From a virus: a stretch of 24,604 nt of DNA. Made by a program: the position numbers and the translations under genes. Of the stretch, positions 3,065-20,932 are shown one piece after another; the first letter of the stretch is position 1, and each line of letters starts with the position of its first letter. Where the stretch lies: positions 1 through 24,604 of the IMG/VR virus record IMGVR_UViG_3300008963_000031, one strand, 5' to 3'. The notes under the pieces were generated by a model. That model was not told where the DNA came from. It did not search any database and was given only the letters and a program-made list of their open reading frames with translations.

Positions 3065-3129
3065 CAAAAATAATAATATCACAATTTACACAAAATTTCG
3101 CCAAGACTAGCCCTGCTAGACCAGGGGGT

Positions 3130-3289
3130 GTCGGGGGCTTGCCCCTGACGGGGCGCTGAAGTTTCCTAACGCAAAATTGTATAGAGCTTTGCTGACCATC
3201 TATAACGCGTTAGGCGTCAGTTCGCTTGCGAACAAGATACGCCGCTTCCGAACTAGTATCATCCGGCTTGTGGGGACTTGTCCCCACAA
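3130..3289. other. Three CTTG-loop hairpins, oriT-like region
   Basis: Three hairpins share the same CTTG loop: 3130-3149 (stem GTCGGGGG with CCCCTGAC, one G-T pair), 3220-3233 (GTTCG/CGAAC) and 3268-3289 (TTGTGGGGA/TCCCCACAA). Between the first two, CCTAACGC (3165-3172) pairs with GCGTTAGG (3207-3214), with TATAGA/TCTATA inside. The segment is GC-richer than its surroundings and holds no convincing gene. The GGGGGTGTCGGGG...CCCCTGAC layout reminds me of mobilisation origins next to MobA/MobL relaxase genes, but no relaxase is present in the window. The oriT idea is a tentative inference. Confidence 0.4.
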
Positions 3290-3447: not shown

Positions 3448-3451
3448 TCAA

Positions 3452-3493
3452 ATGGATCAAAAAATGGATCAAAAAATGGATCAAAAAATGGAT
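3452..3493 (+). repeat. 12-bp tandem repeat with GATC in each unit
   Basis: ATGGATCAAAAA is repeated three times exactly (3452-3487) and followed by a half unit ATGGAT (3488-3493). Each full unit carries one GATC Dam site. It lies downstream of repA, beyond its terminator, where it could be an iteron-like or Dam-controlled origin element. Read as protein it encodes Met-Asp-Gln-Lys repeats in a frame that begins after a TAA at 3356 and ends at a TGA just past 3500. There is no ribosome site, so a DNA role is favoured. Confidence 0.75.
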
Positions 3494-3572: not shown

Positions 3573-3623
3573 AAAAAAGCGTAGCCACTAAGTCTGTTAT
3601 AGATTAGTTGGGTACGCTTTTTT
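3573..3623 (-). terminator. Terminator downstream of repA
   Basis: AAAAAAGCGTA (3573-3583) and TACGCTTTTTT (3613-3623) are perfect complements. The stem extends imperfectly through GCCACTAA and TTAGTTGG to a loop of about 10 bases. An A tract on one side and a T tract on the other make it usable in either direction. It lies 25 bp after the repA stop codon. Confidence 0.75.
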
Positions 3624-3647: not shown

Positions 3648-4478
3648 TTAGCCTGGCGGCGCTTCAGTCCATCCAGAAGCTTTTAGACGACGAAGAACAA
3701 GATAATTAAGATCAGCTTCACTCATCGCTTGGAACTCAGCAACGTTATATTCTCGCTTAATCTGGCTAATAATCATTGCTATTGCTTCATCGCGAGTCTT
3801 ACAGCGCTTAAGCGCAGCTGACGAACGAAAGCCTAGTTTTAAGCTTAATCTTTCTGTGTGCTTCTTAAAGGCATAACCGTAAACACGATCACGCACCTCT
3901 AGAAGCGCTTCTTTCAAAGTTAATTTGCTTTTTTCTAGTGCTTTTTGGTGTGCTTCGAAAATTTCATCAACAAGACCTTGCGCACATCGGCGCTCGAAGA
4001 ACTTGTTAGTTACGCGAAGAACGCGAGGTAGGTAAACGCCAGTGTTGGGTATAACCTGGCCGTTATCATCAACTAGGTTAGGTTTGCGAACCAAACCAGC
4101 TTTAGGATCATTAGAAGAGGCTTTCCCAGGGAAAGCCTCTTCTAATTCGCCCAACTCAATGAGATCGTGCAAATGTCTGCTTACCGTTGATTTATCAACG
4201 CCTACTTTATCAGCATACTGTGCAATGGTTCCCGCCGTGCAAAATGTAAACGTTTTTAGATCGAGATTGTCCGTAATACACAACATTAGGTTAGTCATGT
4301 TTTTACGCTTGATTCTGTTGGGGTAGGATTTGCCGATCGCGAACCAACGGCGAGCATAACCAGCATAGTATGCAAAGGCACCGTCAGAAAAGGATCTACA
4401 CGCTTTCCATAAACAAGAGGGCTTTTGTCTTACCTCAAAGTCATAGTTAGCGATGCTGTCAAAAGAGATTTGCGCCAT
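3648..4478 (-). CDS. repA: IncFII-type plasmid replication initiator RepA
   Basis: 276 residues, close to the roughly 285 of IncFII RepA. Residues 81-110 form a winged-helix recognition segment (AGTIAQYADKVGVDKSTVSRHL). These are followed by GVYLPRVLRVTNKFFE, matching the IncFII pattern where a similar HTH is followed by a CYIP-type strand and a long Lys/Arg-rich helical C-terminus. The C-terminal half here (from about 165) is likewise helical and basic. The inferred role is to bind the origin and recruit host replication proteins for theta replication of the prophage-plasmid. It starts 9 bp after the stop of the Cro-like gene with only a weak ribosome site, so translational coupling is likely. 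No CopA/Tap-style leader is visible. Odd: codons 112-123 are an almost perfect DNA palindrome. The family call is from memory; a divergent winged-helix initiator of another class remains possible. Confidence 0.7.
   Translation of the reverse strand: MAQISFDSIANYDFEVRQKPSCLWKACRSFSDGAFAYYAGYARRWFAIGKSYPNRIKRKNMTNLMLCITDNLDLKTFTFCTAGTIAQYADKVGVDKSTVSRHLHDLIELGELEEAFPGKASSNDPKAGLVRKPNLVDDNGQVIPNTGVYLPRVLRVTNKFFERRCAQGLVDEIFEAHQKALEKSKLTLKEALLEVRDRVYGYAFKKHTERLSLKLGFRSSAALKRCKTRDEAIAMIISQIKREYNVAEFQAMSEADLNYLVLRRLKASGWTEAPPG
4111..4145. repeat. 35-bp perfect palindrome inside repA
   Basis: TTAGAAGAGGCTTTCC (4111-4126) and GGAAAGCCTCTTCTAA (4130-4145) are perfect 16-bp complements around a 3-nt loop. 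The palindrome lies in frame at codons 112-123, encoding LEEAFPGKASSN, between the winged helix and the following strand. This is where IncFII RepA proteins are shorter. As RNA it would form a strong stem-loop. Confidence 0.85.
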
Positions 4479-4487
4479 AAACTATAA

Positions 4488-5000
4488 CTATCCAGGCATA
4501 AACATTTTGTTAATTACGACTGGATCAATGCTTCCTCTTTCTATAAGAAGATCAAAATCTATTGGCGATATAGTTGTTTCCTGGCTGCCTAGCAGCTGCC
4601 CCCAAACAAATAGTGTTGAAGTGACAATCTCACTCATACCAAATACCTTTGCTAGATCACATAAAGAAATCATAGCACCTTTGTAATTATCTACACTTTC
4701 GCCATTGGCTTTGGAAATGTTAGCTTTTTCAATAACATGACTAGCAATCAAAAAAATAGCATCGTTTAGGTCGGGAATAAATTGCTTATCAGAAGAGTGC
4801 GACTTACGATAACCAGCGAACAATTCTGGCGATACTTCGCAACGAGAAACACCCGTAGCACGTTCGAAATCTAACAACCTATTTGCTGGAACATGCTCTT
4901 TTTTCATATAATTAGCAACGGCGGTTAGTGTAACCCCCATTTTCTCGCTAACGATCTTCTGACCGCCGGCACTTATCACTGCATCACTAACAACACCCAT
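4488..5000 (-). CDS. YdaS/Cro-like regulator upstream of repA
   Basis: 170 residues from the ATG at 4998-5000, with GGTGG about eight bases upstream. Residues 1-60 closely follow the YdaS/Cro-like HTH pattern: ISAGGQKIVSEKMGVTLTAV, then a VPANRLLDFERATGVSR segment and a SPELF end. The remaining 110 residues are mostly helical and of unknown function, longer than usual for this family. It faces a CI-like gene across a 111-bp operator region, so it is probably the Cro-side member of the switch. It is co-transcribed with repA. YdaS proteins have been described both as toxin-antitoxin partners and as phage Cro-like regulators; context favours the regulator. Confidence 0.7.
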   Translation of the reverse strand: MGVVSDAVISAGGQKIVSEKMGVTLTAVANYMKKEHVPANRLLDFERATGVSRCEVSPELFAGYRKSHSSDKQFIPDLNDAIFLIASHVIEKANISKANGESVDNYKGAMISLCDLAKVFGMSEIVTSTLFVWGQLLGSQETTISPIDFDLLIERGSIDPVVINKMFMPG

Positions 5001-5111
5001 AGTTTAGACCACCATAAACATAATGACCATATAGTACATATTAAAAAAGACTATAGCAAATCAAACATAAAGTTTTTATTATTAAACTATTAGTTTAGTA
5101 GAGGTAGTCTT
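5001..5111. promoter_or_regulatory. Divergent switch region with TAAAC/GTTTA operators
   Basis: The gap between the two divergent regulators carries three related dyads: GTTTA-N8-TAAAC (5003-5020), AAAC-N5-GTTT (about 5064-5076) and TAAACT-ATT-AGTTTA (5083-5097). The region is strongly AT-rich and must hold promoters for both directions. Repeated half-sites of this kind are expected for competing CI-like and Cro-like proteins. Confidence 0.6.
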
Positions 5112-5477
5112 ATGTCATCTTTAGCAGAACGATACAAAAATGCGCGTATTGCAGCTGGGTTATCGCAAGGCGACCTAGCAAAACTGACACATTGCACAAC
5201 AACCGTTATCAGTAAGATCGAAAGAGGTTTAACTAATACACCTAGAAATTTCGCGTTACACGCTAAGTATCTGGGAGTTAGTGAGGTTTACCTTATGTAT
5301 GGCCAAGACATTAGATCTGAGCCAGACATTATCGAGCCAAGCCCACAATATAACGAGTTAAACAAAAACCTACTGATACTAGATCGTAAAGGTCTACTGC
5401 ACGGTGATATATTTCGTGTTATTGAAGGCGCTGTTGCGCTTGCTGTTAGAACAGAAAGCAGACAAGTAGCGAGCTAA
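5112..5477 (+). CDS. CI-like HTH repressor (small)
   Basis: 121 residues from the ATG at 5112, with AGAGG seven bases upstream. Residues 4-60 are a typical Cro/CI-type HTH_3 domain: YKNARIAAGLSQGDLAKLT, then TTTVISKIERG as recognition helix, then a closing helix at AKYLGVSEVYLMYG. The remaining 60 residues lack the Ser/Lys autocleavage domain of LexA-type repressors. It is a short repressor, possibly dimerising through the C-terminal helical part and not directly cleaved by RecA. It is transcribed away from the Cro-like gene and ends in a strong terminator. Inferred role: lysogeny maintenance, possibly with copy control of repA. Confidence 0.75.
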   Translation: MSSLAERYKNARIAAGLSQGDLAKLTHCTTTVISKIERGLTNTPRNFALHAKYLGVSEVYLMYGQDIRSEPDIIEPSPQYNELNKNLLILDRKGLLHGDIFRVIEGAVALAVRTESRQVAS

Positions 5478-5491
5478 CCCAAGAACGCTTT

Positions 5492-5522
5492 AAAAGCCCA
5501 GGCCATATGCCTGGGCTTTTTT
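5492..5522 (+). terminator. Rho-independent terminator after the CI-like gene
   Basis: AAAAGCCCAGGC (5492-5503) and GCCTGGGCTTTT (5509-5520) pair perfectly around CATAT, followed by further T. It lies 14 bp after the stop codon. Confidence 0.9.
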
Positions 5523-5733
5523 GTTGGTTTTACGCTTTTGGCGTTCCAATTGATATCAAACTACACTTGTAACGTGGTTAACATATTTACAACATTAGAA
5601 TCATGGTCTACAGACGCTAGAAAACTATCACTTTTGAAGCTTAGGAAGCGGTTTTAGGCGCAACGTCAATTCACTGGGGCGGCTTATGTATAATATGTTA
5701 AATAGGGACTTTTATTTTAAATTTTAGAGGCTT
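5523..5733. other. Non-coding stretch between the switch and ogr
   Basis: No gene seen. It contains CGCTAGAAAA (5615-5624), the right copy of the 16-bp inverted pair (5632-5647), GCGGTTTTAGGCGC directly after it, and a TATAAT at 5689-5694 with no good -35. CTAGAA/TTCTAG and GGCG elements echo those at 2286-2314, suggesting the two non-coding regions bind the same protein. Confidence 0.4.
5632..5647 (-). repeat. Right copy of the 16-bp inverted repeat pair
   Basis: TTTTGAAGCTTAGGAA is the exact reverse complement of 2363-2378, about 3.3 kb away. Confidence 0.75.
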
Positions 5734-5763
5734 TCGACATACCTATGACTTTTTGTTTATAAT
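5734..5763 (+). promoter_or_regulatory. Sigma70 promoter for ogr
   Basis: TCGACA (5734-5739) and a perfect TATAAT (5758-5763) are 18 bases apart, reading toward ogr with an expected transcript start near 5770. ATTGCATAT directly at the -10 end (5762-5770) matches 380-388, so the same factor that binds the GCAATGC repeats might act here. Confidence 0.6.
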
Positions 5764-5797
5764 TGCATATCTTTTTTATTATAGCGGAGGAAGGACA

Positions 5798-6031
5798 ATG
5801 AAAGTTTTTAAACCGACCTGTCCTAATTGCGGAGGCAGAAACACAACAATACGCACTAGTAAGAGCGACGATATACGCTTACACGTACACTATTGCGATT
5901 GCTTGGAAGAACATTGTTTAACTCGCTTTGTTGTAGAATCAACGACAACAAAAATCCTTTCTACGCTTAACGATGAACTTAAAAAAACCAAAACCCCTCA
6001 ATTAGATCAAATCCCCCTCAATCTCGCATAA
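5798..6031 (+). CDS. ogr: Ogr/Delta-family late transcription activator
   Basis: 77 residues from the ATG at 5798, chosen because GGAGGAAGG lies directly upstream; the longer frame from 5753 overlaps the promoter. The protein has the Ogr/Delta layout: CPNC (Cys8, Cys11), a basic RTS motif at 19-21, then Cys35 and Cys40 spaced C-x4-C, followed by a hydrophobic RFVVEST end. In P2 and relatives these four cysteines bind one zinc, and the protein activates late promoters by binding dyads upstream and contacting RNA polymerase alpha. Here it should activate the divergent late operons starting at 12355 and 12493. It heads the plus-strand block that continues into parA. Confidence 0.88.
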   Translation: MKVFKPTCPNCGGRNTTIRTSKSDDIRLHVHYCDCLEEHCLTRFVVESTTTKILSTLNDELKKTKTPQLDQIPLNLA

Positions 6032-6116
6032 TTGCAAAACACTTTTTGCATTACACTTTACGTATTGCATTTTATGCGTTACATTACCTTTATCAACTTA
6101 GATAGAGGTAGCAGCA
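6032..6116 (+). promoter_or_regulatory. Repeat-rich leader of the partition operon
   Basis: Contains TTTTTGCATTAC (6043-6054), GTATTGCATTTTATGC (6062-6077) and ACATTACC (6081-6088). The first is identical to 1862-1873. A possible promoter is TTGCAT (6046-6051), 18 bases, then TTTTAT (6070-6075). In ParA/ribbon-helix-helix systems the leader repeats serve as operator and sometimes as centromere. Confidence 0.5.
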
Positions 6117-6662
6117 ATGGAACAAATCATTCTTGCAATCATGGCATCTAAAGGCGGCGTAGGTAAAAGCGCATTAGCTAAGATGTTCCATAAAGAATTA
6201 ACCAGGCAAGGTTATAAAGTAAACGGCAAAGACGGCGACACTCAGCAGCACTTTAACGCTTACATGTCCACACAACCTAGCTTTGAAAATCCAGATGTAA
6301 CAATTGTGGATACGCAGGGCGCCTGGACAAGTGACAACGAAAGCCTTATCCATCACATCAAAAACGACAACTATAAAATTATCGTTCCATTTAAACCAAG
6401 CGACGAAGATCTAAAAGAAGCTTTGCTAATGGCTCAACGTCTAAAGAAAATGGATGCGCTAAATAATGCAGTTTTTGTCGTAAATGAAACTTATAGAGAC
6501 TTTGATGCTGAAGCAAAATCATTTTGCGACAGACTGCGCGAACGCGGACTAATCGTTTCTAAATGGCAGTTCCAAGACCTCAGAGCAATTCAACGCGGCC
6601 AAAATACGGGTAAGGCACAAAAACAAGTGCAACGATTTTTACATGAACAGGGTATTGCATAA
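6117..6662 (+). CDS. parA: ParA-type partition ATPase
   Basis: 181 residues, short for the family (ParF types are about 200). It has the deviant Walker A KGGVGKS at 12-18, the D-x-D switch at 39-41 (DGDTQQ), and the Walker B strand with VDTQG at 64-68. It lacks the N-terminal HTH of P1-type ParA, so it belongs with small ParF-like proteins. These polymerise or pattern on the nucleoid and move plasmid copies when stimulated by a partner bound to the centromere. AGAGG precedes the ATG at good spacing. The gene directly downstream (11 bp) encodes a ribbon-helix-helix protein, the expected partner. Its presence argues that the prophage is maintained as a low-copy plasmid. Confidence 0.88.
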   Translation: MEQIILAIMASKGGVGKSALAKMFHKELTRQGYKVNGKDGDTQQHFNAYMSTQPSFENPDVTIVDTQGAWTSDNESLIHHIKNDNYKIIVPFKPSDEDLKEALLMAQRLKKMDALNNAVFVVNETYRDFDAEAKSFCDRLRERGLIVSKWQFQDLRAIQRGQNTGKAQKQVQRFLHEQGIA

Positions 6663-6673
6663 AGGGGGCAACA

Positions 6674-7042
6674 ATGGGATTAGAAAACTGGGGCGGAGAA
6701 AAGAACGCTACCGCCATTGACCAAATAGACAACGCTTATGTTCCTAAAAGTGAACATGAACGTTTAAAGACACTTGAAACCTTACGCCAGCAATGGTCTG
6801 AAATAGATAACAAAGACCAGAAAGCGATAAAGGCATTTATTGATAACAACATTTCATCGCCTTATTTTGACGAGTTTATTGCAACGGCCGAAAAGAAACA
6901 GGCATTCAATGTAACGTTACGAATGAGTCCGCTAGCTTACTTTCAATCTCAGGTTATTTTAGGAAGTCAAAAGGAGCATAAAACACTAGGCAATATGTTT
7001 AACTCCATCATTGGAATGATTTACAAGAATCAACAGAAGTAA
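6674..7042 (+). CDS. ParG-like centromere-binding protein (ribbon-helix-helix)
   Basis: 122 residues. The C-terminal 50 residues fit a ribbon-helix-helix: a strand (AFNVTLRMS), helix PLAYFQSQVILGSQ, a turn at KTLG and a second helix NMFNSIIGMIYKNQ. The N-terminal 70 residues are charged and probably flexible, with a helical stretch around 29-52. That matches ParG-like partners, whose tail stimulates the ATPase and whose RHH dimer binds short repeats. Position right after parA supports this. Likely DNA targets are the GCATTAC/TTGCAT elements in the leader at 6032-6116. The assignment is structural reasoning, without a named family hit. Confidence 0.65.
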   Translation: MGLENWGGEKNATAIDQIDNAYVPKSEHERLKTLETLRQQWSEIDNKDQKAIKAFIDNNISSPYFDEFIATAEKKQAFNVTLRMSPLAYFQSQVILGSQKEHKTLGNMFNSIIGMIYKNQQK

Positions 7043-7050
7043 AGTAAGGA

Positions 7051-7080
7051 CTGGCTGCAAGCTTCGACCCAAGCAGCCAG
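7051..7080 (+). other. Hairpin after the partition genes
   Basis: CTGGCTGC (7051-7058) pairs with GCAGCCAG (7073-7080) around a 14-nt loop. No T tract follows, so it is probably not a strong terminator. It may stabilise or process the mRNA between the par genes and the small-gene block. Confidence 0.45.
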
Positions 7081-7122
7081 GAACACAACTAACCCAAGTA
7101 CACCATACTTAAGGAATCAATC

Positions 7123-7281
7123 ATGCTTAATGCGAATTGTACAAAACTATCTGATATACGTCTAACTGAACTTACATCGATACCATTAGCAAACCTATTC
7201 GAAATACTCAGTCAAAAGCCTTTAGACGTACAACAAAGCATTCTCGAAATGCGTAGCTACCTGTTAAAGCAAGGACGTTAA
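7123..7281 (+). CDS. Small hypothetical protein, 52 aa
   Basis: ATG at 7123 with AAGGA seven bases upstream, TAA at 7279-7281, two bases before the next gene's ATG. The product is Leu/Ile-rich and amphipathic: a first part around KLSDIRLTELTSIPLANLFE and a second helix around PLDVQQSILEMRSYLLKQG. This suggests a small helical bundle or protein-protein adaptor. No membrane segment and no recognised family. It opens a tightly packed plus-strand run that continues to 8340. Confidence 0.65.
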   Translation: MLNANCTKLSDIRLTELTSIPLANLFEILSQKPLDVQQSILEMRSYLLKQGR

Positions 7282-7283
7282 TC

Positions 7284-7922
7284 ATGTCTAACTCAAGTCT
7301 ACAGCAACTAAAACAAATTGTTGAACGAACAGACGGTGCAACACTTATAGAACGTGGGCTAATGCTTAGCCTTATTAACAATGTTGACAAGCAAATCGAG
7401 CATGTCATTGAAAAGCTAGATATGTGTTGCGGAACATCGGCTAATAAGGTTGAGATCCAAGAATACCTAGAAATGATGCGCCTTAATATCGATTTAGTAA
7501 CCACTGGCGCAAGTTATGCTGAACTTTTCCAACTTAACCGCTTACCTAAAGACGCGGTTTTGTCAGCAAAACCATATGATGACCCAACACTTGAAGATGT
7601 AATTACGGCGTTATCTCAGCCAGGAACACTACTACCATCTTCATCCGCTTCAGCCTCACTGTTTGCGGAGTCACTTAATACCATGATCAACAAACTTGAA
7701 AGTAACGAGGAAGCCAGAGGTAATCTGTATTGTGGTGAAAAGATTTTCGAAGCTATAAAGCGCAAAGTAGGGGTTATCTATGGAGCGGAGTTTAATTGGT
7801 TTGATGTGAAAATTATGCGAATGCCTCACCTCGAACCATACTCGTTGGCAAGTGACGATCCCGAAATAGTCAAAGCTATGGAAGAGTTTATCGATAGAAA
7901 AAGAGGAACAAGCAATGAGTAA
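7284..7922 (+). CDS. Hypothetical helical protein
   Basis: 212 residues from the ATG at 7284, with AAGGA eight bases upstream inside the previous gene's end. Mostly helical: residues 1-45 contain LQQLKQIVER and NNVDKQIEHVIEKLD, then a Cys-Cys pair (MCCG) near 48. A Ser/Ala-rich linker follows around 115-125 (SSSASAS), and the C-terminal region ends acidic then basic. No catalytic motif, membrane segment or known family recognised. The last codons overlap the next gene by 8 bp. As part of an early-type operon after par, it may serve phage replication or host takeover, but nothing in the sequence shows this. Confidence 0.65.
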   Translation: MSNSSLQQLKQIVERTDGATLIERGLMLSLINNVDKQIEHVIEKLDMCCGTSANKVEIQEYLEMMRLNIDLVTTGASYAELFQLNRLPKDAVLSAKPYDDPTLEDVITALSQPGTLLPSSSASASLFAESLNTMINKLESNEEARGNLYCGEKIFEAIKRKVGVIYGAEFNWFDVKIMRMPHLEPYSLASDDPEIVKAMEEFIDRKRGTSNE

Positions 7923-8100
7923 AGAACGCGACTTTCTTGTTAATGCTACGATTACGGTTAACGTAGAAGTTGAGGTTAGCGCCGAAAATAAAGAAGATGC
8001 TAAGTTACGTGCTGAACATGCTATTTATGATGGCACATATGAATGTAAAGACTTAGAAAACGACCCCATCATTAACTGGGCGAAACTTCAAAATGACTGA
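7915..8100 (+). CDS. Small strand-rich hypothetical protein
   Basis: 61 residues, overlapping the previous gene by 8 bp (ATGAGTAA) with AGAGGA upstream. It has an alternating hydrophobic stretch, ATITVNVEVEVSA, followed by a helix with an EDAKLRAEHAI pattern. This strand-strand-helix layout is seen in many tiny phage proteins of unknown function in which a beta segment is followed by an ENKEDA-type helix. No enzyme motif. It shares an 8-bp overlap with the following gene, so it is translationally coupled on both sides. Confidence 0.6.
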   Translation: MSKERDFLVNATITVNVEVEVSAENKEDAKLRAEHAIYDGTYECKDLENDPIINWAKLQND

Positions 8101-8269
8101 TAAAAAACAATCAGACGAACTGCAAAAGGTTCAAATAGCAGAAATTCGAAACAACATCAGATTGAAATCACTAGGATTCTATCAACGCTGGCTTATAATC
8201 TGGTTAGTTATTGGTGGGTTTATCAAACTGGACATTGCCAAGGAGGTTATAACGTGGATAAGTGGATAG
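8093..8269 (+). CDS. Small single-span membrane protein, 58 aa
   Basis: ATG at 8093 overlaps the end of the previous gene; stop TAG at 8267-8269. The N-terminal 32 residues are charged and helical (KKQSDELQKVQIAEIRNN). One hydrophobic segment, WLIIWLVIGGFI, lies at about 33-44, followed by a short amphipathic tail. This suggests an inner-membrane protein with a cytoplasmic N-terminus. Its 3' part contains the AAGGAGG ribosome site and start of the next gene. Unknown role; superinfection exclusion or membrane signalling are speculative possibilities. Confidence 0.6.
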   Translation: MTDKKQSDELQKVQIAEIRNNIRLKSLGFYQRWLIIWLVIGGFIKLDIAKEVITWISG

Positions 8270-8340
8270 AGAATCACAGCACCTTAACTGCTATCATCAT
8301 TGCTGCTTTTGGCCTTTGCTTAGGCTACGCAGTCTTCTAA
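8254..8340 (+). CDS. Tiny membrane peptide, 28 aa
   Basis: GTG at 8254 with a near-ideal AAGGAGG seven bases upstream, and TAA at 8338-8340 just before the terminator. The peptide is a short polar N-terminus (DKWIENHS) followed by a single hydrophobic helix (LTAIIIAAFGLCLGYAVF). The strong ribosome site and position inside an operon make it a real gene despite its size. It overlaps the previous gene by 16 bp. Such peptides may act in the membrane as exclusion factors or lysis helpers; no evidence distinguishes these. Confidence 0.55.
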   Translation: MDKWIENHSTLTAIIIAAFGLCLGYAVF

Positions 8341-8345
8341 CACAC

Positions 8346-8372
8346 AAGCCCCGTTAAATACGGGGCTTTGTT
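8346..8372. terminator. Bidirectional terminator between converging blocks
   Basis: AAGCCCCGT (8346-8354) and ACGGGGCTT (8360-8368) flank TAAAT, followed on the plus strand by TTGTTATT. It closes the plus-strand block from ogr onward and overlaps the stop codon of the minus-strand late operon. Confidence 0.85.
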
Positions 8373-8905
8373 ATTCTTACGGTCAAACCGTAGAGCACCA
8401 TTGATTCCATTAAGTACCAAGCGTATAGAACTGGCAGCACCTCGATATCATCACGCCCCCAAATCGCAGCTAACCAGGATATCTCAGTGAAGAAGTACCC
8501 CACTAAAAAGATGATCGATTGAAACTTAATAAAGCTTTCACTGTTGAGCAATCGCACCAACATAACGCAGCTGGCCAACATGTTAATCAATGACCACACA
8601 TAAACAACAAACATCGAGGCTGGAACTAAGAACGGAACCGGCAACCATAGCCAGTACCACCATTTCAAACGTGAAGCTTTAGCAGTATGGCCAAGCAACA
8701 GGTTTGTTTGTATCGCCCACAAACACCAGAGCGATTGAGTGATTATCAACTGATATTCTTGTGTGTAGTCGATAACCCAACCAATCACCAAGACACACCA
8801 AAGAGAGACGATAAGCAGCAGTATATGATCGCCTTTCTTTACCGCCAGGTGCATTGCGTAAACGCTAGCCATTACGCATAGAAAAAACAGGCTGTAGACT
8901 ATCAT
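8354..8905 (-). CDS. Polytopic membrane protein at the end of the P-Q operon
   Basis: 183 residues from the ATG at 8903-8905, overlapping the previous stop as ATGA. Very hydrophobic with five to seven likely membrane spans, starting at residues 2-20 and 28-46, and rich in Trp (for example KWWYWLWLPVPFLV). Some spans carry charged residues, and a short Lys/Arg tail ends the protein. No transporter or enzyme signature recognised. Its position in a late operon after a holin-like gene could mean a lysis accessory role. A lysogenic-conversion or exclusion protein is also possible. The stop codon lies in the terminator stem. Confidence 0.65.
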   Translation of the reverse strand: MIVYSLFFLCVMASVYAMHLAVKKGDHILLLIVSLWCVLVIGWVIDYTQEYQLIITQSLWCLWAIQTNLLLGHTAKASRLKWWYWLWLPVPFLVPASMFVVYVWSLINMLASCVMLVRLLNSESFIKFQSIIFLVGYFFTEISWLAAIWGRDDIEVLPVLYAWYLMESMVLYGLTVRITKPRI

Positions 8906-9195
8906 TTAAACTTTCTCAGTAGCTTAGCTAAGCCATTCTTTATCAGCAGATTAACAAAATCATCGGCAAGAAACGCACCCAATAGAATCGATATAACGAT
9001 CTTATTCTGTGACCAGTTCTGGTCGAGTGCGTAGTAAGTCACTAGCATTGCAACAAATATCGATGTAGACAACGCTTTAACGACTCGCATCAATGTGACT
9101 TTATCTGGCGGAAAAAACATCCTTACCGCCACGACAATTAAACTAACAATAAATGACTGAAACGTAATGTAGAAAAAGAACTGCAAATCAATCAC
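8902..9195 (-). CDS. Holin-like small membrane protein
   Basis: 97 residues from a GTG at 9193-9195 with AAGGG upstream; no internal ATG gives a sensible protein. Three likely membrane spans: about 8-25, 40-57 and 64-80, ending in a Lys/Arg-rich tail (KNGLAKLLRKFK). The layout resembles LydA-type phage holins and the other holin candidate in this phage (18954-19283). Both share an IVVA segment, a charged loop, a second span and a C-terminal basic tail. It overlaps its neighbours by 8 and 4 bp. It might be a second holin, an antiholin, or an unrelated small membrane protein. Confidence 0.5.
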   Translation of the reverse strand: MIDLQFFFYITFQSFIVSLIVVAVRMFFPPDKVTLMRVVKALSTSIFVAMLVTYYALDQNWSQNKIVISILLGAFLADDFVNLLIKNGLAKLLRKFK

Positions 9196-9499
9196 TACGA
9201 TTACCCTTTATAAAGGTAGCGGTTCTATCCTTTCCCTGTGCCATATCAAAGCCAACATAAGGACGAGGGACGTAACCGGCAACATTAACCCAAACACTAC
9301 CAGGCCAACAATTAGCGACAGATTGAGCGCTAATCAAACTTGGTGCGCAGCTATTACAAATATAGTGCGCTTTCTTGCCTTCAAACATGTTACGCGTGAC
9401 CTTGTAACCTACCTCAAACTTAAACAATAGGCCGCAGTTCTTACACTCACGAAAGAAGAACGGCCAACATCGTTTAACAACTTGCTGAGCATTTTTCAT
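9188..9499 (-). CDS. Zinc-finger-like hypothetical protein
   Basis: 103 residues from the ATG at 9497-9499, with GGAG nine bases upstream. Residues 19-53 carry C-x2-C and C-x2-C pairs (CKNCG and ICNSC) separated by about 28 residues, a zinc-ribbon-like spacing. The rest is basic with a VPRPYVGFD segment and no membrane span. It starts just 3 bp after the portal stop codon and overlaps the holin-like gene by 8 bp, so it is part of the P-Q transcript. A DNA-binding or host-interaction role is possible; no family recognised. Confidence 0.6.
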   Translation of the reverse strand: MKNAQQVVKRCWPFFFRECKNCGLLFKFEVGYKVTRNMFEGKKAHYICNSCAPSLISAQSVANCWPGSVWVNVAGYVPRPYVGFDMAQGKDRTATFIKGNRSD

Positions 9500-9502
9500 A
9501 AT

Positions 9503-10522
9503 TTAGCTCTCCAAGAAAGACGGTTTATCAAAAATAATTTGCTTACCTTTTGGCATGATTGAGTTAACACTAGATAACAGCTTTTGCATTGGTCGCACCT
9601 CATTTTCGTAGTACGTCTTGTTGTACTTTTCTGGATCGCCCATCGCACTACCTTGCGTTGGAATAATACCGCTCAAACCTGGCGGAAATCGATGCGCTAC
9701 CATTACGTCCTGTGACGATACCGTTTTAATAGTGTTGAACTCATCTTTAGTTGATACGTCACCAACTGGCATTAACTGCACGCCCTTTTCCTGCCCGTTT
9801 GGTATGTTGATAAGCAAAGATTTAAAATTACCCACGCCACGCGAATTCTTTAGAGCGTCTTGTAGATTCTTTTCAACTTCCGGTGACATATTTGGATCGG
9901 TGGTATAAAGAATGAAGCCCATGTGCGCGCCGTTCTTGTAATAACGACGACGAAATAACGTTGCGTCCTCAGCTAGCATTGCAGACTGTAGGCCACTTAG
10001 GTAATCAGGTAGACCGTAAATATTTTGCTTTGGATCGTATAACTTCACGTGGAAGATTTCGCCGGCTTTAAACCAGGTACGCGTTTCGTCCGAGTTAAGG
10101 CGCACAAAGCGATTGTTTTTACCTTTTCGCATTGGTTGCCAGGGAACGTGCGCTAGTCGTACCGGTTGATTTAAAAAGTTGTAGAACACCTGGTAAGCAC
10201 ATTGACCGAATCCGACTAAATCTTTAGCTAGGTTCATCATGTCAGTAAATAAGAGGACATCCTCGTTAACGTGATAGTCTTTTGCTAGGATTCTTGCTCT
10301 AGCCTCAACGATAGAACCGTGATAACTGTTGGCTATCATCATGTCGGATAGTGAATCCGGCTCAATTGGTGGGGTGTAGAACTTTTCAAATTCGTCGTAT
10401 TCAACGCCGTCATAATGAGCCGGATTTTTAACATCGACCCTTTCAATACCACCAAAAGAAAAAACGGTTTGCTCACCTTCTTTCTTTTCGTCTACATCGG
10501 TTTTAATAGTTTCATCTTGCAT
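9503..10522 (-). CDS. Q: P2-family portal protein (gpQ)
   Basis: 339 residues, against about 344 for P2 gpQ. The sequence has the family hallmarks: an N-terminal YTPPIEPDSLSDMM stretch, a central fold with YLSGLQSAMLAEDATLFRRR and KNGAHMGFILYTTD, and a C-terminal VMVAHRFPPGLSGI with the PxKYNKTYYENEVRP helix. It forms the dodecameric ring at the capsid vertex through which DNA is packaged and to which the tail joins. It starts 3 bp after the terminase stop codon with a weak ribosome site, suggesting coupling. The P-then-Q order on the strand opposite to the rest of the late genes is the P2 arrangement. Confidence 0.95.
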   Translation of the reverse strand: MQDETIKTDVDEKKEGEQTVFSFGGIERVDVKNPAHYDGVEYDEFEKFYTPPIEPDSLSDMMIANSYHGSIVEARARILAKDYHVNEDVLLFTDMMNLAKDLVGFGQCAYQVFYNFLNQPVRLAHVPWQPMRKGKNNRFVRLNSDETRTWFKAGEIFHVKLYDPKQNIYGLPDYLSGLQSAMLAEDATLFRRRYYKNGAHMGFILYTTDPNMSPEVEKNLQDALKNSRGVGNFKSLLINIPNGQEKGVQLMPVGDVSTKDEFNTIKTVSSQDVMVAHRFPPGLSGIIPTQGSAMGDPEKYNKTYYENEVRPMQKLLSSVNSIMPKGKQIIFDKPSFLES

Positions 10523-10525
10523 TGA

Positions 10526-12355
10526 TTAGAGATCCATTTTATAGGTTGAGTGACGTTTTTTATTCACGTTAAGACCTTCTTTAATAAGAGCATGAGACAG
10601 AGCAAAGAAAGAGTCAGCATGTCCAGTCTCTTCCGTTCTATCTGCAACAAAGGTCATTTGTCCTTTGCCTGTTGTTTTCCGTTTGATGGCCATAAATGAA
10701 ACACCTATCGTTTTTTCTGTTGCTGGCCATAGAATTCGGCTGTGTTGAACAACATCTAGCATTTTCAACACCAATTCCGTTTTACTTTGGATCGAGTAGT
10801 TAATAAGCATTGCGCGAGGGAAGAACGCCGAAACTAACTCACCAACCCCTGAACCAATGCCGGATACATCAATACCTATATGTGTTACGTTGTATCTTTG
10901 CGTTAATAACTCCACCTGGTCAGCTTGCCATTGCCAGTTAAAGCCCTTCCATTCGAAGCCTTCAAGAACGCGAAACTTATCTTTGAATTTATCCAGTTTC
11001 GCCACAGCGTTATAGCCATCAGGCGGAGCAACCACGAAACATCGAGCAAAATCCCCCGTTCGCGCTGGATCGTATCCTAGCCAAACTTCCTTATCCCCAA
11101 ACGGCCTAGCTATATTGTTTTCCAGATCAAAATCATCCCAATCATCGATATCGACAGCACATGATTCGATGTCTTTTAGCTTGAAGATACTGTCCGCTTC
11201 ATCCATGAACTGACATAGGAATAGATAAGCAAAGGCATCACTACTGTAGCGTTCTGCCAGGTCTTCACGATTGATAAAAGTATTTCCGCCGGCTATTGCG
11301 TCATCAATGGTGATAGCAAAACGCCAGCGCTTGTCGGGGCATAATTGCGGCGTTTTCCGCAAACGATCGATAGTAGGAAACTCTATATCAAGACGTTCTT
11401 TGTCTTGACCTTTCCACCAAGAACCAGACCAAAGCGGAAACGCGCTGTGTTGTTTTGTTGATGGCGTAGAAAATACGGTGATAGTGAACTGTGACAACGT
11501 GGCCATAGCTGAAGCCACTTCGTATATTTGTGCAAACTTGTTAATCCAGAACGCCTCATCAATGTAAACGTCTGAACTATACGATTGCGCCGTATTTTTA
11601 TTTGTACCTAAGAATCGAAGTTCAGCACCGTTAGATAACTTAATTGGATTACCAGTTAACTCGATGTCTAAGAACTCTTTAGCAATGTGAATAATGTACG
11701 AACGGAACACCTCAGCCTGGGCGCGAGAAGCAGAGAGGAACGTTTGATTTTTACCGGTGAAGATAGCCTTGTATAACGCCTCGCCCGCAGCCTCGTACGT
11801 TAAGCCAATCTGACGGCTTTTTAATGTCCAGCGCTCACGTTGATTACGGTTGTTAAATTGGATCTTTTGGTATTGAAATAGGCTACCAATCCATTTTTGG
11901 AATGACTCTTCCGTAACACCGGATATATCATTTTTACTTTTCTTTTTACGACTTCTACTTCGTCGCCCTTCAGAAAAACTAAATCCCGCATCCTCGCCAG
12001 CTGCTTTGAATTTGTCTAATTCAGCTTCAGCTTGTTTTATAGCAAGCTTTCTTTCTTCTAACTCACAATTAGCCTTACGAAAAATGACCACGTTTTTAAT
12101 GAGTCGGTCTATTTCATCAAGTTCTAATTTCGTCTTCTTTTCACGGTTAATAAGCTGCTTTAATCGAAGTTCTAAAAGCTGCTCAGTGTCATATTCAGAA
12201 AGCAAATCATCCCAACTGAATTTTTTTATCCAGTTGTAAATTGTGCGTGAACCATTGACCCCAACAGCATTCGCAATTTCATTGGGGTTCATACCTTCGA
12301 GATATAACCGCTTAGCTTTATCTCTCTGTTCGTCTGTATATCTAGAATTTTTCAT
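10526..12355 (-). CDS. P: Terminase large subunit (gpP)
   Basis: 609 residues, close to P2 gpP (about 590). An N-terminal HTH (residues 5-47, GMNPNEIANAVGV) and a long coiled-coil-like segment (60-120) precede the ATPase. Its Walker A-like SRQIGLT is at 180-186 and its Walker B VYIDEAF has D266/E267. The C-terminal RNase H-type nuclease has likely metal ligands D429 (GYDPARTGD), D496 (GIDVSG) and D581 (GHADSF). It cuts and pumps DNA with gpM into procapsids. P2 terminase is known to use closed circular monomers, which fits a plasmid prophage. The start codon sits in a perfect palindrome and the ribosome site is weak, so translation may be restrained. Confidence 0.95.
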   Translation of the reverse strand: MKNSRYTDEQRDKAKRLYLEGMNPNEIANAVGVNGSRTIYNWIKKFSWDDLLSEYDTEQLLELRLKQLINREKKTKLELDEIDRLIKNVVIFRKANCELEERKLAIKQAEAELDKFKAAGEDAGFSFSEGRRSRSRKKKSKNDISGVTEESFQKWIGSLFQYQKIQFNNRNQRERWTLKSRQIGLTYEAAGEALYKAIFTGKNQTFLSASRAQAEVFRSYIIHIAKEFLDIELTGNPIKLSNGAELRFLGTNKNTAQSYSSDVYIDEAFWINKFAQIYEVASAMATLSQFTITVFSTPSTKQHSAFPLWSGSWWKGQDKERLDIEFPTIDRLRKTPQLCPDKRWRFAITIDDAIAGGNTFINREDLAERYSSDAFAYLFLCQFMDEADSIFKLKDIESCAVDIDDWDDFDLENNIARPFGDKEVWLGYDPARTGDFARCFVVAPPDGYNAVAKLDKFKDKFRVLEGFEWKGFNWQWQADQVELLTQRYNVTHIGIDVSGIGSGVGELVSAFFPRAMLINYSIQSKTELVLKMLDVVQHSRILWPATEKTIGVSFMAIKRKTTGKGQMTFVADRTEETGHADSFFALSHALIKEGLNVNKKRHSTYKMDL

Positions 12356-12367
12356 GCTTCAAGCATG
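12353..12367 (-). promoter_or_regulatory. Palindrome over the terminase start codon
   Basis: CATGCTT-C-AAGCATG is a perfect 7-bp-arm palindrome that includes the ATG of gene P. The only Shine-Dalgarno-like bases (GAAG) lie in the same stem, so an mRNA hairpin would hide both. Confidence 0.5.
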
Positions 12368-12393
12368 ACACATACCGCCGTCTATCTTATTTG

Positions 12394-12429
12394 GCAAAAG
12401 TTGGTAATGGAGCCATTACCAACTTTTGC
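12394..12429. promoter_or_regulatory. 36-bp palindrome between divergent late operons
   Basis: GCAAAAGTTGGTAATGG (12394-12410) and CCATTACCAACTTTTGC (12413-12429) are perfect complements with a 2-bp centre. The site lies 39 bp from the P start and 63 bp from the O start. In P2 relatives Ogr binds dyads near -55 of late promoters, and this is the best candidate here. The sequence does not show the P2 TGT-N12-ACA form. Possible -10 boxes are TAAGAT (minus strand, 12384-12389) and a poor one near 12461. Confidence 0.6.
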
Positions 12430-12492
12430 AGATCGTAATAAGCCGACTTTGCTTTTAGGCTAAACATATCAAGCAATAACGGTAACAAAACG

Positions 12493-13476
12493 ATGGCACT
12501 AGAAACCGGATACAAAATCATAGGGACAGCTGGCGATACTGTTGATGGTCGCGTGATTGATGAAAAGTGGCTTAAGCAACTGGTTAAGAACTACAGCACG
12601 GATAAGTATGTAGCTGTTATAAATCTCAATCATTGGAATCCTAAATGGTATGGCACCTACGGAAAGGTGTTATCCGTAAAGCTAACCAAGAACGATGAAG
12701 GGAAAGTTTGCGTAGCTGCAAACATAGAACCTAATCAAAAGCTAATTGATATTGCTCGTGAAGAAATTCTATTTACCTCAATGGAAATCGATCCAGATTT
12801 TCAAAAGAGTGGCGAGGCATACCTTATTGGCCTAGCCGTTACCCCTAAGCCGGCATCTGTTGGCACTGAACAAATTTCATTCTCTAGCGAACCGCTACAG
12901 AACTACCACACCACCGATTTCTATCAGTTCGATTTTACGGACATGGCAGAACCTGACCAGGACACACAAGAAGGCAAGTTCAGAACCTGGTTAAAAAAAT
13001 TCATGACAGATTCAGAAAATCAAGAAGAGGAACCACCAATGAGCGGAAGCGGCGTTGATGAAAAAAAACTAGAGGAACTGACAACCCAGCTTTCCTCGTT
13101 AACAGCATTGCTAAGCAAACAGTTTAGCACTGAGAACACCCCACCTAAATCTAGTGACGATGCGGTTAAGCTAACGGAGCAGTTAGCCCCTATTTTGGAA
13201 AAACACGGTATCAAGCTCTCTATTGAACAGCCTAAGTCTGACTCTGAACGAATCGATGACCTATTTAGCAAGATCGATGAATTGGGCAAAAAGCTAGGTA
13301 ACGAACCTGACAAAGAAAAACAGCCAGGTGATCAAGCAGACAAAAAGCAGCTAGAAGAACTTCAGCAGCAAATCAGCAAGATTAGCGAAACTCTGAATCT
13401 GGCAATCAATGGCGAGAAACCAGGCACTGACGCTGGCGAACAAGCTAACGGTAAAGACGACGATAGCTTCGTTTAA
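12493..13476 (+). CDS. O: Capsid scaffold and prohead protease (gpO)
   Basis: 327 residues, against 284 for P2 gpO. The N-terminal half is the serine protease: likely triad D18, H47 (INLNHWNP) and S96 (LFTSMEID), with the GLAVTPKPASVGTE stretch typical of the family. The C-terminal half is highly charged, Gln/Glu/Lys-rich and coiled-coil-like with low-complexity repeats of ELQQQISKI type, the scaffold that shapes the procapsid. It cleaves itself, capsid protein N and perhaps portal Q. The ATG at 12493 has only a weak ribosome site. It opens the plus-strand late operon. Confidence 0.93.
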   Translation: MALETGYKIIGTAGDTVDGRVIDEKWLKQLVKNYSTDKYVAVINLNHWNPKWYGTYGKVLSVKLTKNDEGKVCVAANIEPNQKLIDIAREEILFTSMEIDPDFQKSGEAYLIGLAVTPKPASVGTEQISFSSEPLQNYHTTDFYQFDFTDMAEPDQDTQEGKFRTWLKKFMTDSENQEEEPPMSGSGVDEKKLEELTTQLSSLTALLSKQFSTENTPPKSSDDAVKLTEQLAPILEKHGIKLSIEQPKSDSERIDDLFSKIDELGKKLGNEPDKEKQPGDQADKKQLEELQQQISKISETLNLAINGEKPGTDAGEQANGKDDDSFV

Positions 13477-13503
13477 CAATCAATCAAAATAGGAGCTTAA
13501 ACG

Positions 13504-14823
13504 ATGGCTTTTAAATCTACTGAATTATCTAAAGCAATTCGCGCTTATTGCGATGGCATGGCCTTATCATTTGGTGTTGATACCACAAAAGAAATGTTCG
13601 ATGTCACACCACCAAAAGAAATCAAACTTCGTGAAGCTATCATCGAAGGCAGCGAGTTCTTAAAGAAAATCAACGTAATGGACGTTGATCAAACTGAAGG
13701 CGATGCAGTCACGGTTGGCACCGACGAAATGGCAACAGGTCGCGCAGCACTTGACGATGGACGTTTTCAAGGCGCTGGCGTAGGCATGACCGGTAACGCC
13801 TACAAGCTGCAAGAAACAGACACGATGGTAAAAATGTCTTGGTTACAACAGGCCGCCTGGATTAATGCCGGTTCACAAGGTCAGTTTAACCGCTTAGTTG
13901 CTTCCTACACTAATCAACAAATTGCCGCGGATATTGTAAAGGTTGGCTGGAATGGCCGCGAAGCAAAACGACCTACTGACCCTAGCACATACCCACTAGG
14001 ACAAGACGTTAACGAAGGCTGGCAAGCGCACGTTGAACGTCTTGCACCTGAACAAATCGTAAAAGATGACGGCGAAGGCAACCCTATTTACTTTGACCCT
14101 GAAGGCACTAAAGACGCCGACGGTAAACCGTTGTACACCTACAAGACGCTTGACGCGATGGCCAGCGATCTAATTAACAGTGTGTTAGCACCAAAATATC
14201 GTAGCTCACCTGACCTGGTTGTTTTGGTTGGCCATGATTTGATCGCAGCAGCGCAATACAAGTTGTATAGCGAAGCAGATAAACCAAGTGAACATAACGA
14301 TGCTCAAAAGCTAGATAAATCTATTGCTGGCCGACCTGCTTATGTTCCGGCTTACTTCCCTGGTAATCGTATGGTTGTTACATCATACAAAAACCTATCT
14401 GTATATAACCACCGCGGTACTAAGCGCCGTAAAGTACGAGACAACGACGACAAAGCACGTATGGAATCTACTTACTGGCGTATGGAAGATTACATGGTTG
14501 AACGCTTGGATAAATACGCGGCGTTTGATGAAGACTCTGTCGTTATTGGCTCATCTACTGAAGCGCCAGCAGCACCAACCATTACAACACCGCCAGCAGA
14601 TCAAAGCGTAGCTATTGGTGCAACAGCAACGTTCTCTGTTGTAGCTGAAAACGCCGACTCTTACGAATGGCGCCTAGATAACGATGTTATCGGCGATAGT
14701 TCAGCAAACGCTGATATCGATACAACGGGCATGACTGCCGGCGATTACACAGTGAAAGTAACTTGTATGGGCGAAGGCGGCAGCAAAGAAGCAACCGCAA
14801 CGTTAACTGTAACGTCCGCTTAA
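13504..14823 (+). CDS. N: Major capsid protein (gpN) with C-terminal Ig-like domain
   Basis: 439 residues, against 357 for P2 gpN. Residues 1-350 follow the P2-type HK97-fold capsid: KFLKKINVMDVD-like early segment, MSWLQQAAWINAG, then PDLVVLVGHDLIAA and VPAYFPGNRMVVTSYKNLSVY, ending with YMVERLDKYAAFDE. From about residue 355 there is an added domain: Ala/Pro/Thr linker, PADQSVAIGATATFSV, an ADSYEWRLD strand with the core Trp, and DYTVKVTCMG-EATATLTVT at the end. This is the layout of an Ig-like fold. Such domains on capsids or tails usually sit outside the particle and may bind surfaces weakly. A strong AGGAG precedes the ATG. Cleavage by gpO near the N-terminus is expected. Confidence 0.95.
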   Translation: MAFKSTELSKAIRAYCDGMALSFGVDTTKEMFDVTPPKEIKLREAIIEGSEFLKKINVMDVDQTEGDAVTVGTDEMATGRAALDDGRFQGAGVGMTGNAYKLQETDTMVKMSWLQQAAWINAGSQGQFNRLVASYTNQQIAADIVKVGWNGREAKRPTDPSTYPLGQDVNEGWQAHVERLAPEQIVKDDGEGNPIYFDPEGTKDADGKPLYTYKTLDAMASDLINSVLAPKYRSSPDLVVLVGHDLIAAAQYKLYSEADKPSEHNDAQKLDKSIAGRPAYVPAYFPGNRMVVTSYKNLSVYNHRGTKRRKVRDNDDKARMESTYWRMEDYMVERLDKYAAFDEDSVVIGSSTEAPAAPTITTPPADQSVAIGATATFSVVAENADSYEWRLDNDVIGDSSANADIDTTGMTAGDYTVKVTCMGEGGSKEATATLTVTSA

Positions 14824-14841
14824 CCGTAGGAGAATAGCCAC

Positions 14842-15564
14842 ATGGTATCACCAATGCAGCGTAGAAGAATGCGACTTGATGCGGAGCGAAAAGCAAAATC
14901 CGCAGGTGTTCAAGCGAGTAATACAGCAAGCGATAACAACCAAAAGTCGGGGAGTTCTACCAATGCTTGGGATCTCGTTAGAAGCACAATTGATGCTGAT
15001 ATTAAGCAGCTAAAGAAAATTAAACCTTTAGCTCAAAAAATCGAATACAAACAAAAAGTGATCGAGAACTATCAGCCTTATCTAACACGAAGTGACATTC
15101 CTGTTGATATCAAAATGCTTTTGATGGTGTGGCTATTCGACATTGGCAAGATTGGAGACGCAATAACAATCTGCATCGATGCGATAGAGAAGGGCTACAA
15201 AATGCCAGACTTTATCAAATCATCATCACCGGAGTTCTTAGCAGATACCGTCTTCGATTGGTCGGAAAAACAGTTTAAGGCCGGTCATTCTGCCGCGCCT
15301 TATTTTGACCAAGTATTCAAGCTAGTTACTGAAAAGTTCAACACCTACGAAGTCATCAAAGCTAAGTATTACAAACTGGCTGGCTTGATGGCACTTGGTA
15401 AGCATGGCGCTCATCCTCGCCACGTATCAGAGCCAGAGCGATTAAAAACCGCATTGGCCATGTTTACCAAGGCCGATCAAATTTACGACCGCGCCGGCGT
15501 TGGAACACGCATTGCTGAGATTAACAAACGTTTGGCCATTCTTATGATTGACCACAACGATTAA
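14842..15564 (+). CDS. M: Terminase small subunit (gpM)
   Basis: 240 residues (P2 gpM: 247). It begins with the basic start typical of the family (SPMQRRRMRLDAERKA), then helical segments, and contains LLMVWLFDIGKIGDAI, DTVFDWSEKQFKAGHSAAPYFDQVF and ARHV-type sequence near the end. It recognises cos DNA and directs gpP to the cut site. AGGAG lies nine bases upstream of the ATG. The gene sits in the invariant O-N-M-L order. The GKHGAHPRHVSEPERLKTA segment near 195 keeps the family pattern. Confidence 0.93.
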   Translation: MVSPMQRRRMRLDAERKAKSAGVQASNTASDNNQKSGSSTNAWDLVRSTIDADIKQLKKIKPLAQKIEYKQKVIENYQPYLTRSDIPVDIKMLLMVWLFDIGKIGDAITICIDAIEKGYKMPDFIKSSSPEFLADTVFDWSEKQFKAGHSAAPYFDQVFKLVTEKFNTYEVIKAKYYKLAGLMALGKHGAHPRHVSEPERLKTALAMFTKADQIYDRAGVGTRIAEINKRLAILMIDHND

Positions 15565-15592
15565 AGACTCCCAACCCCACCGCGGCATAGTG

Positions 15593-15631
15593 GGAAATAA
15601 CAATAGCCAAGGGGCATAGGGTGTTATTTCC
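15593..15631 (+). other. Long-range inverted repeat between M and L
   Basis: GGAAATAACA (15593-15602) and TGTTATTTCC (15622-15631) pair perfectly, with a small GCC/GGC stem in the 19-nt loop. CCCAC/GTGGG just before it can form an alternative stem. No T tract follows. It is probably an mRNA structure or an internal control site in the late operon, because this is the only sizeable gap (99 bp) between O and the tail genes. Confidence 0.5.
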
Positions 15632-15663
15632 ATCAACTATCGCCGCCCTATTACGAGGTGTGT

Positions 15664-16131
15664 ATGACACGTTTTCAACATCAAAAAGAAGCAGATAGCA
15701 GTTATCCAGATGAGATCCAAACGCCAGAGTTTTGGCCAAACATCAGTATGTCTGACTTTCAAAATATTAAACGCATACCCACTGAATACGATGCTGGCCA
15801 GCAGCGTAACGCATTAGTCCGAGCGATTAATAACACAATCATTGAGTTAGGCGCCTGGGAACAAAGCCAGATACAGGCCGGAAAAACCAATGCTAATCAA
15901 TGTGGCCAGATTATCGACGGAAAAGGCGCTGCGGAATCTCTGTTCATTTCCGCAGTGTACGACTTAGCCAAAGCAACACTGTTAACGCACTTCAAAACAG
16001 TTAACCGCCGTGAAGAAGCGAATAACGAAGCCAAAGAAGAACGCAGCACATACGATGAATTGGTGCGCGAGTGGCAACGTTCAGTACGCGGCATTTTAGA
16101 AATCAGTTCAGCATCAGTATTACTGCTATGA
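15664..16131 (+). CDS. L: Head completion/stabilisation protein (gpL)
   Basis: 155 residues if it starts at the ATG at 15664 with GAGG five bases upstream; a GTG two codons earlier overlaps the ribosome site. Family features: PEFWPNISMSDFQNIKRIPTEY near the start, a QQRNALVRAINNTIIELGAWEQ helix, and a YDLAKATLLTHFKTVNRREEANN segment. gpL closes the filled head and joins head to tail. Its TGA overlaps the next ATG. Confidence 0.9.
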   Translation: MTRFQHQKEADSSYPDEIQTPEFWPNISMSDFQNIKRIPTEYDAGQQRNALVRAINNTIIELGAWEQSQIQAGKTNANQCGQIIDGKGAAESLFISAVYDLAKATLLTHFKTVNRREEANNEAKEERSTYDELVREWQRSVRGILEISSASVLLL

Positions 16132-18469: not shown

Positions 18470-18473
18470 CAAC

Positions 18474-18932: not shown

Positions 18933-18953
18933 TAACAATAAGGAGCGTCAGTT

Positions 18954-19819: not shown

Positions 19820-19822
19820 ATC

Positions 19823-20921: not shown

Positions 20922-20932
20922 TAGGTGCAACA

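Follow-up and report, generated by a model that had tools for sequence, protein, structure and literature searches.

Plasmid prophages among P2-like phages

Lysogeny as a plasmid was shown experimentally for a P2-like phage in 2010, when plasmid DNA was recovered from lysogens of Burkholderia phage KS14, which carries ParA and has no tyrosine integrase (PMC3091744). In Arsenophonus nasoniae, four extrachromosomal elements are made up of nothing but circularised prophage DNA (PMC7157526), and Vibrio crassostreae has one circular phage-plasmid genus and one linear, both active (PMC13230959). Here we describe a viral DNA of 24,604 nucleotides (nt), referred to as the window, which is the entire IMG/VR record IMGVR_UViG_3300008963_000031. 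We read it as most of a temperate phage with a contractile tail, Peduoviridae-like and from the HP1/K139-like branch of the P2 family, which is probably kept as a low-copy circular plasmid prophage. Phage-plasmids are recognised by a single element that joins virion genes to plasmid-type genes for replication and partition, and this combination is present. Since KS14 lysogenises as a plasmid, such a lifestyle is possible for a P2-like phage. The original prediction, made from the DNA sequence of the window, called the combination new on condition that few or no plasmid prophages with an IncFII-type replicon are described in the P2-like branch; plasmid prophages as such are not new in the P2 family, as KS14 shows, and two circular P2-like plasmids with ParA are also known, paPv10 of A. 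nasoniae and pZZM401 of Zymomonas mobilis.

KS14 (NC_015273; Kisquattuordecimvirus, Peduoviridae) resembles the window in its P2-like virion genes, ParA, replication initiator and lack of a tyrosine integrase; however, its initiator is RepM-like (NF038290, 4e-44). Plasmid paPv10 (33.8 kb) carries full P2-like late genes, a ParA-like ATPase, replication initiator protein A and no annotated integrase, but it retains a P2-type gpA, and its ParA and Rep differ from those of the window. Plasmid pZZM401 (37 kb) likewise combines P2-like late genes with ParA, a small partner and no annotated integrase, whereas its ParA is a ParA_partition protein (NF041546, 1.7e-71) and no IncFII-like Rep was recognised in it. 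In trees of the terminase large subunit (TerL) and the major capsid protein (MCP), all three belong to the P2 branch. HP1, K139, phiO18P and Vibrio P2-like phages share the capsid and tail gene order and sequence of the window, but these phages encode an integrase as well as a nicking protein of the gpA type, and they lack such a ParA. Thus, the plasmid lifestyle of P2-like phages is known, and what is new, as far as searched, is its occurrence in the HP1/K139 branch with this type of replicon.

Apart from a sequence of the same population (L009) that is 100% identical to the window, the closest virus is IMGVR_UViG_2660238287_000001 (L010), with 55% identity in TerL and 54% in MCP. The two form one clade within the HP1/K139 branch (100/100 in the TerL tree and 100/97 in the MCP tree), in a limited, author-chosen sampling where several genomes are represented only in part; judged by these proteins, they are a separate lineage of the branch. 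No ParA of such a kind was found in the other 28 sampled rows of the HP1/K139 branch. L010 shares a gene block with the window, encodes ParA and a partner and has no integrase in its 24.4 kb. However, its ParA and partner are of another type, also found on Vibrio plasmids, its gene order after the portal gene differs, and it yielded no match to RepA.

The RepA-like initiator

The gene at 3648–4478 (minus strand) encodes a RepA-like replication initiator of 276 amino acids (aa) with a winged helix and a C-terminal region. The NCBIfam model NF040977 (RepA_IncFII_LM) matches residues 143–265, in the C-terminal half, with an E value of 1.2e-4, or 1.9e-6 for the record alone. No RepA relatives emerged from phages or plasmids by tblastn, or from viral and genome contigs by a pattern scan; eight came from a whole-genome search of 330 Vibrionaceae genomes and are 27–36% identical over the matched parts. 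Profile–profile comparison of eight RepA sequences with six RepA of the IncFII-L/M type gave an E value of 5e-7 over 226 columns, compared with 0.06 for the best of 40 column shuffles, and the signal lies mostly in the winged helix. The AlphaFold model of RepA has a mean pLDDT of 58 and the fold search was uninformative. Within the repA coding sequence, positions 4110–4146 form a perfect inverted repeat of 18 bp whose arms are 1 nt apart.

Remote homology of RepA to the IncFII/L-M RepA proteins is supported by these sequence comparisons; membership of that family is unsupported. The IncFII-type Rep of the original prediction therefore stands in part, through remote homology and the 3′ elements described below, and fails as a family assignment, because RepA scores below the NF040977 cut-off and the Pfam model IncFII_repA (PF02387) gives no match. 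A winged-helix RepA and origin-like DNA 3′ of repA are common to the window and to IncFII/IncL-M replicons, whereas RepA of the window is below both thresholds and control by antisense RNA (copA/inc, tap) is a property of those replicons. An Rfam search, a partial test for copy control by antisense RNA or leader peptide, returned no relevant family. We also considered that RepA might be no more than a phage regulator: winged-helix hits alone are compatible with such a role, but the collinear C-terminal match to IncFII-L/M RepA and the shared 3′ elements count against this reading.

Non-coding DNA downstream of repA

The most telling evidence for the putative link to IncFII-L/M-type replicons is the shared DNA 3′ of repA. 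In the IncFII plasmid R1, oriR is located just 3′ of repA. RepA and DnaA act at this R1 site (PMC5883639). In the window, repA is followed by a hairpin with a T-run, its likely terminator (3573–3623; inverted repeat, fold z-score −5.0), and then by a 12-bp tandem array, AAATGGATCAAA in 3.7 copies (3450–3493; Tandem Repeats Finder score 88, 100% match), which precedes the conserved elements and whose repeats are candidate iterons. The first of these elements, a conserved hairpin of 31 nt, GAAGCGGCGTATCTTGTTCGCAAGCGAACTG (3218–3248, minus strand), lies 403–433 nt 3′ of repA. It is identical at 28/31 positions to one located 273 nt 3′ of the RepA_IncFII_LM gene of L094, a genuine Vibrio replicon of the IncFII-L/M type whose Rep gene is well above the family cut-off, and at 25/31 positions to an element 295 nt 3′ of the RepA gene in the tailless prophage L108. 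Shuffled segments reach at most 20 identities, and the short stem shows compensating changes. The L094 segment 3′ of its Rep gene is found again between genes on eight Vibrio plasmids. In position and strand, the elements of the window are similar to those of L094 and of the two conjugative plasmids described next.

The second element, CAGCGCCCCGTCAGGGGCAAGCCCCCGACACCCCCTGGTCTAGCAGG (3112–3158, minus strand), lies 493–539 nt 3′ of repA and is shortly followed by GGCGAAATTT. It is a G+C-rich hairpin element common to two conjugative Vibrio plasmids: Vibrio sp. B1ASS3 plasmid 3 matches it at 94% identity across 47 nt, and pVNTG4 at 82% across a longer stretch of 83 nt. The matching DNA in both, each of which carries conjugation genes, is positioned 507–589 nt 3′ of the gene for a putative Rep of 275 aa; a blastn search of PLSDB matched no record beyond these two. 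The element is not a generic dispersed repeat, as its 27-nt core is absent from the 330 Vibrionaceae genomes (3 mismatches allowed) and from viral contigs (exact matches). It was also considered as a cos site, and no convincing similarity was seen to the ends of HP1, P2, K139, phiO18P or others; a role as origin of transfer is a further candidate reading of it. The motif YCTRGCA..GCRA occurs in 10 of 21 rep 3′ segments, always on the same strand and 396–581 nt from the stop codon; the expectation of 0.07 is illustrative, because the pattern was picked after inspection and several segments are related. The conserved elements 403–539 nt 3′ of repA are a putative part of the replication origin.

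The same Rep family extends to tailless viruses. Four RepA relatives, L105–L108 (G174, G325, G258 and G226), are encoded on contigs of 1.1–2.0 Mb. A PM2-type coat protein (PF18628/PF25513) was confirmed in L106–L108 and a phrog_2666 packaging ATPase in L105–L107. A tyrosine integrase was recognised in L105 (PF00589), with similar open reading frames (ORFs) in L106 and L107, and it adjoins chromosomal-looking genes. Vibrio commonly carries tailless prophages of the PM2-like kind (PMC11630473). L094 and L106 share 96 nt at 93% identity in the 3′ elements, and the presence of IncFII-L/M-like 3′ elements with the RepA of L105–L108 suggests a shared replicon.

Partition genes

Because the RepA family also occurs in integrated PM2-type prophages, Rep alone is no proof of plasmid lysogeny, and the partition genes are the stronger sign. 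ParA (6117–6662, plus strand; 181 aa) has the deviant Walker A motif KGGVGKS that the original prediction had noted, and it passes the Pfam cut-offs of CbiA (2e-7) and AAA_31. It is short and has no N-terminal helix-turn-helix (HTH), as in type Ib (ParA/ParG-type) systems. None of 50,697 phage records matched it at 1e-3. Among plasmids, 36 records matched, mainly from Vibrio and Photobacterium, the best being 36–44% identical; they include pWMD-P1-1 and pWMD-P2-1, both with conjugation genes.

The small gene that follows (6674–7042, plus strand) encodes a partition partner, ParB/ParG-like and resembling ribbon-helix-helix (RHH) proteins, whose C-terminus can be aligned with the small protein encoded directly 3′ of plasmid ParA. 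A partner gene stands directly 3′ of parA in 9/9 Vibrionaceae relatives examined, with products of 104–129 aa. The partner had been predicted as an RHH protein; its existence is borne out by these relatives and by the plasmid alignment, whereas the fold is not, as the RHH-like C-terminal segment was recognised by eye and a hidden Markov model search gave no family match. Among the closest full-length relatives of ParA and its partner are those on the 40-kb V. parahaemolyticus plasmid CP099948.1, surrounded by mostly hypothetical genes; this plasmid is possibly a phage-plasmid or satellite.

Control region and integrase site

The replication and partition genes flank a CI/Cro-like switch. A Cro/YdaS-like regulator gene (4488–5000, minus strand; Pfam YdaS 6e-8) heads the leftward set and is followed by repA. 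Divergent from it, a CI-like HTH repressor gene (5112–5477, plus strand; phrog_8 1e-10, HTH_3 3e-8) is succeeded in the rightward direction by an Ogr-like gene, parA and the small partner gene. The predicted Ogr/Delta-like late-gene activator (5798–6031, plus strand) is retained on a match that is weak yet consistent (phrog_603 4e-6; Pfam Ogr_Delta 0.0024, below its cut-off). A terminator-like hairpin (5492–5520) and a promoter-like sequence (5734–5763), both consensus matches only, precede it. In HP1 and K139 the integrase gene lies downstream of the repressor gene. The same place is occupied here by ogr, parA and the partner gene, and we infer from this comparison of gene orders that they replaced the integrase at that site.

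A search of the record with PF00589 found no integrase, and tblastn with integrase queries found none in the window or L010; the control phages were positive. The absence of an integrase from the window, as predicted originally, is thus upheld for this incomplete record. Six gpA/Rep queries used in tblastn likewise detected no gpA-type rolling-circle protein in the window or L010, and the controls were again positive. A gpA gene may lie in the missing part of the genome; P2-type gpA is not, however, a strict requirement for the Peduoviridae, as KS14 is a member that has no match to P2 A.

Plasmid or integrated prophage

In the proposed lysogenic cycle, CI would repress the leftward genes, and RepA would bind and open the downstream origin and drive plasmid-type (theta) replication, perhaps also in the lytic cycle, standing in for the rolling-circle replication of the P2-type gpA. 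ParA and the RHH-like partner would segregate the plasmid prophage, which would make this the alternative to integration. Ogr would turn on the late genes, whose terminase would package circular monomers.

Several results weigh against maintenance as a plasmid with an IncFII-L/M-like initiator. RepA scores 21.9 bits against a curated NF040977 cut-off of 70, and its C-terminal part alone reached only 0.007–0.016 in the profile–profile comparison. The analysis identified no parS, and the number of DnaA-box-like sites does not exceed chance expectation. The RepA family, a putative initiator, is found in integrase-bearing PM2-type prophages and is compatible with integration. Finally, the contig is linear, a class in IMG/VR that often denotes a fragment, and incomplete: its right edge cuts gene J, its left edge cuts an ORF with no assigned family, and about 8–10 kb appear to be missing by comparison with HP1 and K139. 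That comparison places the remainder of J, gene I, the tail fibre genes and the last baseplate genes in the missing part, which possibly also holds int/attP. Circularity and the lack of an integrase are therefore unproven, although the 24.6 kb contain no integration machinery. Low-copy plasmid maintenance, as originally predicted, is nonetheless the best-supported reading.

An unlikely alternative is that the window represents an integrating HP1/K139-like phage, in which gpA gave way to a RepA-type initiator for lytic replication, parA and the partner gene are accessory, and int/attP lie in the missing 8–10 kb. The four RepA relatives that neighbour PM2-type coat or packaging genes, three of which (L105–L107) have an integrase-like gene adjoining chromosomal genes, would fit such a phage, as would the 28 other HP1/K139-branch rows, where ParA was not found and the annotated members have an integrase. 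However, ParA and its partner are of plasmid type, and active partition has no clear use in an integrated prophage; moreover, neither the window nor L010 has an integrase, and the site that it occupies in HP1 and K139 is taken.

L010 itself bears on another explanation. The ParA that it encodes is 100% identical to the one on pC4602-1, a conjugative plasmid of V. vulnificus, and the surrounding 2,154 bp are 93% identical. In the region 17828–21520 of L010, phage genes give way to a hicAB-like pair and the ParA/partner/Rpn segment that is 93% identical to pC4602-1, so L010 may be a phage-plasmid or a phage joined to a plasmid. That the window is a P2-like prophage which has entered, or become fused to, a larger (conjugative) plasmid, to which Rep and Par belong, is highly improbable: the 2.15 kb of plasmid-like DNA within ~1.6 kb of phage genes in L010 and the closeness of the window ParA to those of Vibrio and Photobacterium plasmids, some of them conjugative, favour it, but RepA and ParA/partner of the window flank the phage-type CI/Cro-like switch and Ogr-like gene, and no conjugation genes were noticed among the window ORFs.

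Virion genes

The coordinates of the original prediction were correct on re-check; its P2/HP1-like late gene set also holds as regards virion genes, except that the module does not end at 12493 and runs from 9503 to 24604, the right end of the window. As in the Peduoviridae, the capsid, terminase and portal genes are of P2 type, with Q-P divergent from O-N-M-L. On the minus strand are the genes for the portal (Q, 9503–10522; phrog_68, E 3e-107) and TerL (P, 10526–12355; phrog_5909, 1e-86). On the plus strand follow the genes for the scaffold (O, 12493–13476; phrog_73, 3e-53), MCP (N, 13504–14823; phrog_70, 2e-94) and the terminase small subunit TerS (M, 14842–15564; phrog_74, 4e-45). Residues ~353–437 of MCP (window 14560–14820) form a C-terminal extension that matches phrog_3995 and resembles parts of tail-protein families; it is also present in L010 and absent from other matched P2-like capsid proteins.

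Head completion (L, 15658–16131) and tail completion (R, 16071–16637) genes were assigned by tblastn to HP1/K139-type phages, and a second tail completion gene (S, 16609–17316) by phrog_26 (2e-21). They are followed by the tail sheath (17303–18469; phrog_907, 8e-104), tail tube (18474–18932; phrog_1182, 1e-47), an N-acetylmuramoyl-L-alanine amidase endolysin (19271–19819; Pfam Amidase_3, 7e-26), the tape measure protein TMP (21588–23534; phrog_28, 6e-77) and baseplate J, truncated by the contig end (23842–24604; phrog_6, 2e-35). Rz/Rz1-like genes are also present in the module. Between the early region and the portal gene, three leftward genes (8354–9499) without family matches include two for apparent membrane proteins.

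Implications

We lean slightly towards a scenario in which one replicon, RepA with its 3′ origin elements, moves in the Vibrionaceae among plasmids of the IncFII-L/M type, tailless PM2-type prophages that are integrated, and the present phage of the HP1/K139 branch. In this phage, the replicon and a parA/partner cassette of plasmid type would between them have replaced gpA and the integrase and created a new phage-plasmid lineage. The shared non-coding DNA shows a route by which a plasmid replicon could be swapped into a phage. If the plasmid reading is true, a family that is mostly portrayed as integrating has a separate phage-plasmid lineage in its HP1/K139 branch. That a single Rep family, which resembles plasmid initiators, is common to this phage and integrated tailless prophages leads to a testable proposal, that the choice between integration and plasmid lysogeny may be decided by integrase versus partition genes and not by the initiator.

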